In this document: positions 4,715 through 31,353 of the stretch, one piece after another
Layout: each line of letters begins with the position of its first letter
Position numbering within the stretch: position 1 is the first letter of the stretch
Source: Acidimicrobiia bacterium
GTDB taxonomy: Bacteria > Actinomycetota > Acidimicrobiia > Acidimicrobiales > JANYDT01
NCBI GenBank assembly: GCA_025359845.1
Contig: JANYDT010000039.1
Span: 1 to 40,432 of the forward strand
DNA length: 40,432 nt
Direction of reading: 5' to 3'
The notes under the pieces: generated by a model
What the model was told of the DNA's origin: nothing
Database searches by the model: none
What the model saw: only the letters and a program-made list of their open reading frames with translations
Position numbers and translations under genes: made by a program

Positions 4715-5506
4715 TTAGGTGATGCTCAAACCGCCGTCGACCACCAGCATCGTGCCGAACACGTACGACGCGTCGTCGGAGGCGAGAAAGGCGCAGGCCG
4801 ACGCCACTTCTTCGGGACGGCCCTGGCGCTTGACCGGCGGCGCGCCGGCCCGCTTGTCCATCCGTCCGTCGATCTCGCCAAACTCGCGGCGCACCATCGT
4901 GGAGTCGATCAGTCCGAGCATCATGGTGTTGGCCCGGATGCCTCGCCGGGCGTATCGCGCCGTCATGTGGCGCCCGATGGCCGGCAACGCCGCTTTACTC
5001 GTCTCATACGCGATGCCCGTCCCGCCCAACAGGCCGGCCAACGACGAGATGAACACGAACACCCCATGGCCCTGCGCCAACATCGCCGGCAGCGCCGCTT
5101 GCGCAGTGAGCACGTGCGAGCGGAGGTTGACATCGAGCTCGAAGTCGAACCCCTCGACGGTTTCGGCTTGCAACCCCCGCCCGCTGGCAATGCCCACGTT
5201 GCAAACGACCACATCCAGTCCACCCAAAGCCGACTCGGCTTGCGCGACGGCAGCGCGGCACGCGTCTGGATCGGACGCATCAGCACTGATGGCCACGTGT
5301 GGTCCTGCCGCCGCACCCGAGCACGCGTCAGCCGTCTCCTGGGCGGATGCGACCCGCAAGTCGCTGATGGCGAGACGGGCCCCTTCGGACGCGAGGCGCA
5401 GGCAGATGGCCCGTCCGTTGCCCATCGCCAAGGTCTCGCCGGCTCGAGGCGGCCCGTCCGCTCCCCCGCCCACCACCAGGACTCGTTTGCCTTCGAAGCG
5501 ATTCAT
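4715..5506 (-). CDS. short-chain dehydrogenase/reductase with expanded glycine loop
   Basis: The ORF opens at 5524, overlapping the upp stop by ATGA, but the ATG at 5506 (MNRFEGKRVLVVGGG) has AAGGG at a good distance and is preferred. That gives about 263 residues. It is an SDR Rossmann enzyme that should oxidise or reduce a hydroxyl/keto substrate with NAD(P). The nucleotide loop is unusual: instead of TGxxxGIG it reads GGGADGPPRAGETLAMGNGRA, an insertion of roughly nine residues. Later marks are canonical: 'NVGIASG' in place of NAG, 'ISSLAGLLGG' with the catalytic Ser, and YETSK with the catalytic Tyr and Lys. The C-terminus ends 'SYVFGTMLVVDGGLSIT', the usual SDR dimer edge. It is translationally linked to upp but the substrate is unknown. 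Confidence 0.88.
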   Translation of the reverse strand: MNRFEGKRVLVVGGGADGPPRAGETLAMGNGRAICLRLASEGARLAISDLRVASAQETADACSGAAAGPHVAISADASDPDACRAAVAQAESALGGLDVVVCNVGIASGRGLQAETVEGFDFELDVNLRSHVLTAQAALPAMLAQGHGVFVFISSLAGLLGGTGIAYETSKAALPAIGRHMTARYARRGIRANTMMLGLIDSTMVRREFGEIDGRMDKRAGAPPVKRQGRPEEVASACAFLASDDASYVFGTMLVVDGGLSIT

Positions 5507-6720: not shown

Positions 6721-8719
6721 GGCCGGGCGCCGACGGCCCACCTTGGTCACGACCATGGCCGTCGCCATGGGCGGTCGACTGATCGTGGGCGTCGCGCAGC
6801 ACCGCTCCAGGATCGATGCCCTTCTGGCGCACCAACTCGATATGAGACTCGGCCTCGGATGAATTGATGTTGTACGGAACACTGGTGACGACAATGCCTT
6901 CGCGCGACAGCAGTGCACTCTTCAACCGCATTGCCGTCTGATTGTGGAGCGCTTGATGGTGCCATTTGCCCACAACGAACTCGGGGATGACGATGGTAAT
7001 GGTGTCGTTGTCCCATCGGGCGTCGAGCTCATCAAGGTAGGCCGTGAGCGGCCGCACGAGCTGTCGATAAGGCGAATGAACGATCTCGAGCGGAATCTTC
7101 ACGTTGAACAGCTCCCACTGACGTTCCATATTCACTCGCTCTTCGTCGTCGCTCGCCACGAACACGGCCACGATATGTTGTGGTCGCAACGACTGCGCGT
7201 AGGCCAGCGACTTCAGCACACCCCGGTGAATCCGGCCGACCAACACGACAACGGTGTGGGTGATGGGTGGCGACGACACCATGTCGGGGGCCACGGTGAG
7301 GGCCGCTCCAACCCGTGAATAGTGCCGCTTGATCAAGACGAATTGACTCATCAAGATCGGCACGATCACCAGCGGGACCCACGCGCCCTGGGTGAACTTC
7401 GAAATGGCGACGATGAGCAACACGATGAACGTCGCCACGCAGCCCACGCCGTTGATGACCGAACTGACCTTCCAATTCTTTTCCTTGAGCCGGAAGTGAT
7501 GGACGACCATGCCCGCTTGGCTGAGCGTGAATGCCGTGAACACCCCGACGGCATAGAGCGGGATGAGAGCGTTCGTCTCGCCTCGAAACAGGATCAACAG
7601 GGCGGACGCGGCCATTGACAAGAAGATCACCCCGTTGGAGAACACCAGCCGGTCACCTCGATTGGCAAATTGGCGATGCAGATACCCGTCCTTGGCAATC
7701 AATTGGGCCAGCCGAGGGAAGTCGGCGTAGGCCGTATTTGCGGCCAGCGTGAGGATCGCGGCGGTAGCCCCTTGCAGGACGAAGAACAAGATGTTGCCTC
7801 TACCGAACACCTGCTGACCCATTTGGGCCATGGCGGTGACCTCGTGGCTGGGGAAGGGATGGGTGAGATGGGCCAGCCACGCGGTTCCAAAGAACAAGGT
7901 GCCGAGGATCACGCCCATCCAGGTCATAGTGGCGGCCGCGTTCTTCGACTCGGGCCGCTGGAACGCGGGAACGCCGTTGGAGATTGCTTCGACTCCCGTC
8001 AGTGCCACCGCGCCCGATGAGAAACCCCGGAGGAGCAGGACCAAACCGAGCGAACCGCCCGACACCTTGAGGTCGTGGATAGCTTTGGCCGAGTCGAAGG
8101 AAACTGTCGAAATACCATTGCCGAAGACCACCTTCATGACCGCCAACGCGATCATGAAAGTCAACACCCCGATGTAGAGGTACACCGGCGGAGCAAAAAG
8201 TGCACCCGACTCTTTGAGGCCCCGCAAGTTGGCGAGCATCATCAACCCCACCAGTCCCAAGCACAATAGGACCCGGCCGTGGGCCAAGCTGTGGAGCGCC
8301 GGGATCGAGATGATGGCAGCCACGCCGGCCGAGATCGACACCGCCACGGTCAGCACGTAGTCGATCAGTAACGATGCGGCGGCCAGAATCGACGGATATT
8401 CCCCGAGGTTTTCTCGGCTCACGACGTAGGAACCGCCGCCAGAGGGATAGGCAAAAATCGTTTGGCGATACGAAATCACCACGATCACCAGCAACACGGC
8501 CACGACTATCGCGATCGGGATGAGTTTGTTGAGACCGAGAGCGAGGCTGGAGGAGCCCGCCGCGATCACAAACAGGATCTCCTCGGTGGCGTACGCCGTC
8601 GACGAAATGGCGTCGGAGCTGAAGACGGGAAGGCCGATCAGCTTGCCGATGCGCTGGTGATCCAAATCGGCCGACGCGATTGGCTTGCCCACCAGCAGTC
8701 TTTTCAACGTAGAGGCCAC
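6713..8719 (-). CDS. KimA-like APC-superfamily permease (probable K+ importer)
   Basis: This 668-residue protein starts at GTG with AAGGTGA about 8 nt upstream. The first ~450 residues carry about 12 hydrophobic segments. 'SSDAISSTAYATEEIL' near residue 34 and 'YPSGGGSYVVSRENLGEYPSILAAASLLIDYVLTVAVS' near residue 91 match the KimA/YdaO branch of the APC superfamily, proton-coupled potassium importers in Bacillus. The C-terminal ~190 residues form a soluble alpha/beta region ('THTVVVLVGRIHRGVLKSLAYAQSL...HIVAVFVA'), like the USP-type tail of KimA, where c-di-AMP acts. Mycobacterial Rv2690c occupies the same place beside ceoB and ceoC. The transported ion is inferred from family and context; an amino acid substrate is the main alternative. 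Confidence 0.85.
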   Translation of the reverse strand: MASTLKRLLVGKPIASADLDHQRIGKLIGLPVFSSDAISSTAYATEEILFVIAAGSSSLALGLNKLIPIAIVVAVLLVIVVISYRQTIFAYPSGGGSYVVSRENLGEYPSILAAASLLIDYVLTVAVSISAGVAAIISIPALHSLAHGRVLLCLGLVGLMMLANLRGLKESGALFAPPVYLYIGVLTFMIALAVMKVVFGNGISTVSFDSAKAIHDLKVSGGSLGLVLLLRGFSSGAVALTGVEAISNGVPAFQRPESKNAAATMTWMGVILGTLFFGTAWLAHLTHPFPSHEVTAMAQMGQQVFGRGNILFFVLQGATAAILTLAANTAYADFPRLAQLIAKDGYLHRQFANRGDRLVFSNGVIFLSMAASALLILFRGETNALIPLYAVGVFTAFTLSQAGMVVHHFRLKEKNWKVSSVINGVGCVATFIVLLIVAISKFTQGAWVPLVIVPILMSQFVLIKRHYSRVGAALTVAPDMVSSPPITHTVVVLVGRIHRGVLKSLAYAQSLRPQHIVAVFVASDDEERVNMERQWELFNVKIPLEIVHSPYRQLVRPLTAYLDELDARWDNDTITIVIPEFVVGKWHHQALHNQTAMRLKSALLSREGIVVTSVPYNINSSEAESHIELVRQKGIDPGAVLRDAHDQSTAHGDGHGRDQGGPSAPGHG

Positions 8720-18166: not shown

Positions 18167-18202
18167 GAGGTTTGTCGAAGAAACCCGGCTAATGTCGCGG
18201 GC

Positions 18203-18298
18203 GGAGGCGTCTGGGTTCCTGGTGGGCTCCCCCGCCTTCAAAGCGGGCGAAGCAGGCGATCCCTGCTTGGCGGGTTCGATTCCCGTCCGCCTCCGCCA
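18203..18298 (+). tRNA. selC: selenocysteine tRNA (anticodon TCA)
   Basis: This 96-nt gene starts GGAGGCGTCTGGG and ends TTCGATTCCCGTCCGCCTCCGCCA. GGAGGCG pairs with CGCCTCC, followed by discriminator G and an encoded CCA. The anticodon arm CCCGC-CTTCAAA-GCGGG gives anticodon TCA. A long variable arm AAGCAGG/CCTGCTT and a T arm GCGGG-TTCGATT-CCCGT are present. TCA plus long variable arm plus G73 identifies tRNA-Sec, which reads UGA as selenocysteine with SelB. The eighth acceptor pair (T-C) appears mismatched. SelA, SelB and SelD are not in the window. It is absent from the ORF track because it is an RNA gene. Confidence 0.93.
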
Positions 18299-18423: not shown

Positions 18424-18780
18424 CTATACGATCAGCGCCGCATCAAGGTACTCCGATGCCGCGATTGCCTCAGCCCCCAGCGTTGACACGCGATGAACGT
18501 CAGCGATCTCGGCCATACGCATGGCGAGGGTCTGCATTGCCACGACTTCAATGGACGCAGGGAGAACGATAAGTTTGCGGCCCAGCGCGACCCGTTGTTC
18601 CTGCGTCCACGATCCGGTGAGCTGACGGCCACGCGCCGAGACCACGCTCTTGCACAGCCGCAACAGATAGAGGTTCGTAGTGGAGAGCTCGTGTGTTGTT
18701 TTTACGCGCGCCAGCGCTGGGCTGCATTCATCGGCGAGTACATCACGCAAAAGGTGATCGTCAAGTACTGCCTTTGTCAT
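18424..18780 (-). CDS. PIN-like / VapC-related protein, probably truncated
   Basis: The 118-residue ORF reads MTKAVLDDHLLRDVLADECSPALARVKTTHELSTTNLYLLRLCKSVVSARG and ends 'AIAASEYLDAALIV'. The opening 'VLDDHLL.DVLA' and the closing 'AEAIAASEYLDAALIV' resemble actinobacterial PIN-like proteins of toxin-antitoxin type. In those the chain normally goes on for some 20-30 residues past this point, with the last acidic residues of the fold. Here TAG follows directly, so the gene may be broken or the fold shortened. The start ATG overlaps the stop of a small upstream ORF as ATGA, the usual antitoxin-toxin arrangement. The family assignment is tentative; activity as an RNase is not shown. Confidence 0.45.
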   Translation of the reverse strand: MTKAVLDDHLLRDVLADECSPALARVKTTHELSTTNLYLLRLCKSVVSARGRQLTGSWTQEQRVALGRKLIVLPASIEVVAMQTLAMRMAEIADVHRVSTLGAEAIAASEYLDAALIV

Positions 18781-30830: not shown

Positions 30831-30864
30831 ATCGTTGTCTCGGAGCCAGTCCTACAGTGGAGCC

Positions 30865-31353
30865 ATGAGCACTCCATTGGCCCCTTCGTCCCGGTTCGAT
30901 CTCACCGCTCCGAACGAAGCGGAACGGGCGCGACTCGAGAGCGATCTGACTTCCGCTGAGGTCGCGGTCCTGCTTCATCACGGCACGGAGGCGGCATTCT
31001 GCGGCGGCCTGCTCAACAACAAAGTCGACGGCCTGTACTGCTGCCGGTTGTGCGGCCTGCCCTTGTTTCGAGCAGCCACGAAATTCGAAAGCGGCACAGG
31101 ATGGCCAAGCTTCTACGCACCCTTCGACGCGGCCCACGTAACCGACGTGCGTGACTCCAGTTACGGCATGGTGCGCATCGAGAATCGTTGCTCACGCTGC
31201 GACAGTCACCAGGGTCACGTGTTCCCCGACGGCCCGCTCCCCGGTCGACTTCGATACTGCATCAACTCCGTCTCACTCGAGTTCGTGGCTGCGGGCGAAG
31301 CGTTACGCGACCCCCTCAGCCGAGGAGACGCCGCCGCACTGGCTACCAGCTGA
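30865..31353 (+). CDS. msrB: peptide-methionine (R)-S-oxide reductase (cysteine form)
   Basis: The ATG at 30865 (MSTPLAPSSRFDLTAPNEAERARLESDLTSAEVAVLLHHGTEAAF) is chosen over the track start at 30835; the protein has 162 residues. It reduces the R isomer of methionine sulfoxide in oxidised proteins. Two CxxC pairs, 'CRLC' near 59 and 'CSRC' near 110, should bind structural zinc. 'FESGTGWPSFYAPFD' and 'HVFPDGPLPGRLRYCINSVSLEF' hold the active site. The catalytic residue near 132 is Cys, not selenocysteine, which matters because a selC gene is in this window. Confidence 0.95.
   Translation: MSTPLAPSSRFDLTAPNEAERARLESDLTSAEVAVLLHHGTEAAFCGGLLNNKVDGLYCCRLCGLPLFRAATKFESGTGWPSFYAPFDAAHVTDVRDSSYGMVRIENRCSRCDSHQGHVFPDGPLPGRLRYCINSVSLEFVAAGEALRDPLSRGDAAALATS

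Follow-up and report, generated by a model that had tools for sequence, protein, structure and literature searches.

Selenocysteine (Sec) is the 21st amino acid. The tRNA of bacterial Sec decoding (tRNA-Sec, encoded by selC) and tRNA-Ser are both charged by SerRS, and in E. coli neither selC nor selD is linked to selAB. Departures from the standard form of bacterial tRNA-Sec have been described, including 7/5 pairing of the acceptor and T stems and bulges (PMC5330540). A 2016 survey defined selenoprotein-rich organisms as those with six or more selenoprotein genes, the majority of which belonged to the Deltaproteobacteria, Clostridia, and Synergistetes (PMC5029168). A 2026 selenoprotein inventory includes FdhA, SelD, Prx and Prx-like proteins, UGC-containing TlpA, and CMD-like proteins with a CxxU motif (PMC13188914).

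Here, we describe a selC gene in a 40,432-nucleotide stretch of DNA (the window) from contig JANYDT010000039.1 of an Acidimicrobiia bacterium (order Acidimicrobiales, phylum Actinomycetota). The genome that contains it (G000; GCA_025359845.1) is a draft MAG of 4.69 Mb in 254 contigs, with 93% completeness and 2.5% estimated contamination. As judged from sequence comparison, the gene almost certainly encodes a functional bacterial tRNA-Sec belonging to an apparently live selenocysteine system. Like other bacteria with the Sec-decoding trait, this organism has SelA, SelB, SelC, and SelD, an overlap between selA and selB, and a SelD that is itself a selenoprotein; as in E. coli, the selAB pair is linked to neither selC nor selD.

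Identification of selC

ARAGORN identified positions 18203–18298 on the forward strand of the window as tRNA-SeC(tca). Rfam model RF01852 matched positions 18203–18294 over its full length with 68.3 bits (E = 5e-12), above its curated gathering score of 47 bits. An earlier reading of the window, made from the sequence alone, had recognized a tRNA with a long variable arm, a TCA anticodon, and G73 followed by an encoded CCA and had proposed a covariance check; ARAGORN and RF01852 both call tRNA-Sec here, and the sequence itself shows each of these features. Homologs were identified in 39 of the 59 genomes of the order at 58–70 bits and other RF01852 matches in these genomes scored at most ~51 bits, indicating that the call is not due to chance.

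Selenocysteine Machinery in the Same Genome

The sequence-only reading had inferred UGA-to-selenocysteine decoding and suggested that the genome be searched for selA, selB, selD, and a UGA-containing formate dehydrogenase (FDH) gene. All four were found, and their occurrence alongside selC argues that the organism probably does decode UGA in this way. SelA, encoded at positions 5063–6550 of contig C4, scored above the TIGR00474 cut-off. The selB gene overlaps the end of selA and runs to position 8271; its product scored 259.5 bits, over the cut-off, and a further match in its C-terminal part covered model positions 529–577. SelD, encoded on contig C50, scored 362.8 bits, and its gene has a single in-frame TGA within the motif SHGAGUACK. 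Another user of SelD, the selenouridine synthase SelU (TIGR03167), had no match in G000. Named relatives of SelA were mostly from MAGs of the Acidimicrobiaceae, Acidimicrobiales, and Ilumatobacteraceae, which makes an Acidimicrobiia host the most likely one.

No SelA, SelB, or SelD was detected among the window ORFs scanned, as had been noted from the sequence, and selC is indeed detached from the rest of the system, with selAB and selD on other contigs and no closer to it than 18 kb. Elsewhere in the order, selC and selA are separated by distances of about 1 to about 80 kb. In some relatives (L105 and L107 among them) selC is directly downstream of selAB, in G019 and G046 it adjoins selD-selA, and in G006 and G029 it is tens of kilobases away. 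Since the separation in G000 falls within this range, it is ordinary.

Candidate Selenoproteins

Two classical selenoproteins were identified in G000, SelD (GAG-U-ACK) and the formate dehydrogenase FdhA (contig C96, NRTUHAPSVVGL). Ten more genes (L206–L215), recovered from the two Pfam families that were searched (AhpC-TSA and CMD), have a UGA at a redox position. These comprise one PrxQ/Bcp-like gene (C241, PGUTIQGC), five UGC redoxins with WUGC or YUGC (C156, C164, C140, C176, and C193), one UxxC Prx-like gene (C78, LAULPC), and three CMD genes with CxxU, two of them with NDCHYU (C117) and NDCFYU (C56) and the third with HDCKTU (C60). The copy on C176 is frameshifted in the assembly, which leaves 11 of the 12 candidates without a visible break. 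The count of 12 refers to SelD and the FDH, AhpC-TSA, and CMD families, and is thus a sample by family. Another gene, the FDH-like molybdopterin oxidoreductase on C197 (L084, G000:C197:7874–9886), was rejected as a selenoprotein, having a TGA where Trp is expected as well as a TAG; it is a pseudogene or an assembly error.

With about a dozen candidates, as predicted from sequence, G000 would exceed the six genes that define selenoprotein-rich organisms, but it differs from those previously listed in belonging to the Actinomycetota, outside the three groups named (PMC5029168). The decoding trait itself had been anticipated by the sequence-only reading; the number of candidates is far higher than that reading implied.

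Hairpins Downstream of In-Frame UGA Codons

A gapless alignment of the region after the UGA in 16 Sec-type SelD genes revealed two hairpins as potential SECIS elements. The second (GGCGCA-nGUnn-UGCGCC in G000) retains six of its seven pairs in 94–100% of the 16 Sec forms, with exchanges of the types GC/CG/TA and GC/AT, and is disrupted in three Cys-type SelD genes. The first hairpin was considered as the SECIS and rejected: its pairing is less consistent, its loop has no constant motif, and the second covaries better. When the 71 nucleotides following the SelD UGA were folded alone, the energy was not significant (z = -0.06); the hairpin became visible only through comparison across species.

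A hairpin with a stem of 6 bp or longer and a loop that opens with GU (an nGU loop) follows 9 of the 12 UGA codons in G000 versus 6.5% of the other codons at the same loci, where the count of nine includes UGC paralogs that are not mutually independent. A 6-bp stem on C156 was left uncounted by this rule because its loop is CGGGU. The precise limits of the SECIS elements given here are predicted ones.

We propose that transcription of selC starts at or near G1 from the gene's own promoter and that the tRNA would be charged with serine by SerRS. SelA would then convert the Ser-tRNA using selenophosphate supplied by SelD, and SelB would bring the resulting Sec-tRNA to UGA codons that are followed by a hairpin. 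The probable targets would be SelD itself and formate dehydrogenase, together with the products of about ten thiol-redox genes in which a UGA occupies the position of the catalytic Cys.

Distribution of the Trait across the Order

The patchy distribution that had been expected of the trait was evident within the order: tRNA-Sec or SelA was identified in 41 of the 59 genomes and neither in 18. With tRNA-Sec scored as present above 55 bits, 36 genomes have both tRNA-Sec and SelA and five have only one (Fisher P = 3e-10, with P values here overstating the number of independent events since the genomes share ancestry). In G030 and G047, SelA was found without tRNA-Sec; in G001, G018, and G050, tRNA-Sec was found and SelA was not detected. 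These split cases may reflect incompleteness, which may account for some of them, or partial loss.

Genes with an in-frame TGA follow the same pattern. SelD with a TGA is present in 22 genomes and the UGC redoxin with a TGA in 21 genomes of different families, all of them among the 41 Sec-positive genomes and none among the 18 Sec-negative genomes. Likewise, FDH with an in-frame TGA (at least 30 genomes) and Prx with a TGA (at least eight genomes) were restricted to Sec-positive genomes, with 0 of 18 Sec-negative genomes among the matches listed, and the Prx distribution was not significant on its own (P = 0.09). In Sec-negative G022, the UGC redoxin ortholog has WCGC, where Cys replaces the Sec of WUGC, and the orthologs in Sec-negative G003 and G023 are without a TGA.

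A second type of FDH, distinct from that of G000 and mostly larger (about 1,050–1,120 amino acids), also has one in-frame TGA. It was observed in at least G007, G009, G010, G013, G018, G028, G029, G036, G038, G041, G047, G049, G050, and G055.

The decay or error apparent on C197 and the frameshift on C176 would be consistent with a functional system in a genome that is not selenoprotein-rich, in which most of the ten additional genes owe their UGA to pseudogenization or to a sequencing error. We consider this very unlikely, given that the UGA falls at the CxxC or peroxidatic position in all ten, that hairpins with an nGU loop follow most of them, and that the UGC form recurs across different families and only in genomes with the Sec trait.

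Structure and Promoter of selC

The 5' strand of the acceptor stem, GGAGGCGU (18203–18210, forward strand, as for all features below), pairs with 18287–18294 through seven standard pairs; the eighth is U.C. This U8.C66 position is common to every member of the order examined but one, which has G-C. Pair 6 is C-G in the window and U-A in most relatives, a compensatory exchange. The D arm, GGGU-U-CC-UGGU-GG-GCUC (18213–18229), would form 6 bp with one bulged nucleotide and a UGGU loop. Comparison favors a layout of 4 bp, the bulged nucleotide, 2 bp, and the loop, and the register that we infer is backed by changes from family to family (GGGT/GCTC, GCTG/CAGC, and GGCG/CGCC). The anticodon UCA, which reads UGA, is at 18238–18240 (ARAGORN position 36). 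The sequence and the minimum free energy fold agree on a long variable arm of 7 bp, AAGCAGG-CGAUC-CCUGCUU (18250–18268), and sequence and fold also indicate a T arm (18269–18287) of 5 bp, GCGGG/CCCGU, or 6 bp if G18269-C18287 is added. G73 is at 18295 and CCA at 18296–18298.

In all members of the order examined, G18269-C18287 or its equivalent could provide six T-stem pairs. The 13 layers of the acceptor and T stems are retained, and the U.C at pair 8 may yield to the sixth T-stem pair, and acceptor/T pairing in the tRNA-Sec of this order could be 7/6 instead of 8/5. The selC genes of Clostridia and Collinsella are likewise without a standard pair at 8/66 (G.A or G.G). Relative to RF01852, the window's tRNA shares with bacterial tRNA-Sec a 13-layer acceptor/T domain, a long D stem and variable arm, the UCA anticodon, and G73 followed by an encoded CCA; it differs in the U.C at the eighth acceptor position, the possible sixth T-stem pair, and the D-stem bulge. 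These differences represent a lineage form, as they are common to the order.

Upstream of the gene, a -10 element, TAATGT (18190–18195), is positioned 7 nt from the tRNA 5' end. Among 47 distinct regions upstream of selC, 31 have TANNNT at -13 to -8, compared to a mean of 0.46 at other offsets. This conservation, together with the TAATGT present here, makes it very probable that selC is transcribed from a promoter of its own.

The U.C pair, the distance of selC from selA, selB, and selD, and the frameshifted redoxin on C176 could each be taken as signs of a relic, that is, a gene kept after the system stopped working. The sequence-only reading would have viewed the gene in this way had SelA, SelB, and SelD been missing and the covariance score poor; all three are present. 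SelA, SelB, SelD, and the UGA genes, including two classical selenoproteins, are intact in the same genome, which already largely argues a relic away, and the occurrence of U8.C66 in nearly every order member examined, the compensatory change at pair 6, and the retained promoter point in the same direction. A relic is accordingly extremely unlikely.

Just as improbable, in our estimation, is that binning has combined the window's selC with sel genes of a different organism. Such a mixture could be envisioned in a draft MAG of many contigs with some estimated contamination and with these genes on separate contigs, but G001, the other member of the same family, has both tRNA-Sec and a Sec-type SelD, the SelA of G000 is closest to proteins from Acidimicrobiia-type MAGs (58%), and tRNA-Sec is common in the order. 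Least credible of all is an opal-suppressor tRNA-Ser, or some other tRNA decoding UGA as Ser or as a different amino acid, which would share the long variable arm and charging by SerRS with tRNA-Sec but is at odds with the 13-layer acceptor/T domain, the 6-bp D stem, an RF01852 score of 68 bits versus at most about 51 for other tRNAs of the same genomes, and UGA codons at catalytic Cys/Sec positions.

Comparison to Known Selenoproteomes

A functional tRNA-Sec thus remains the preferred interpretation, and the selC gene itself is ordinary: the tRNA, the enzymes, and the selenoprotein families are all of known kinds. The candidate families are known because UGC-containing TlpA, CMD-like CxxU proteins, and Prx are already in the 2026 inventory, with which the G000 candidates agree in family, Sec motif, and position; G000 differs in having five UGC redoxin paralogs in one genome and an Acidimicrobiia host (PMC13188914). 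What is new, as far as we have searched, is a selenoprotein-rich actinobacterial lineage unreported in the open-access literature, where a search of titles and abstracts recovered no paper on selenocysteine in Acidimicrobiia. The dozen or so genes that appear to use selenocysteine exceed the number that we found described for this bacterial group. Tentatively, and with slightly more doubt than confidence, we suggest that this unreported lineage has duplicated UGC redoxins as selenoproteins, has a selenoproteome devoted mostly to thiol redox chemistry, and has a tRNA-Sec whose 13th domain pair has moved out of the acceptor and into the T stem (7/6 pairing in place of 8/5).

Genes with an in-frame UGA are easily mis-annotated as truncated, so that the selenoproteome of an uncultured lineage may go unnoticed. 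Here, visual recognition of one tRNA was the starting point for finding about a dozen candidates in a single genome, from a phylum outside those listed as selenoprotein-rich. The added interest lies in this count for an actinobacterial lineage and in the clean pattern of presence and absence. Across the order, that pattern and the Cys ortholog in a Sec-negative genome offer a natural experiment for studying the reasons behind the retention or loss of selenocysteine in bacteria.

Genomic Neighborhood of selC

The sequence-only reading had placed selC between a Tad operon and a PIN-like gene. The former was recovered, as a TadA-type ATPase, two T2SSF proteins, a CbiA/ParA-type protein, and TadE; the latter was not, as the adjoining 118-amino-acid ORF (18424–18780, reverse strand) had no PIN or other Pfam match even at E = 10. 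This ORF may not be a gene. No duplicated tRNA 3' end that would mark an integrated element was found in the window within 5 mismatches of 22, and a GC3 test detected no UGA-containing genes there. The MsrB of the window (SelR domain, 30835–31353, forward strand) was rejected as a selenoprotein since it has Cys at the site (RYCIN), as previously read. MsrB keeps its Cys even though the cell can probably make selenocysteine. TGA also serves as an ordinary stop codon, terminating 15 of the 26 window genes.
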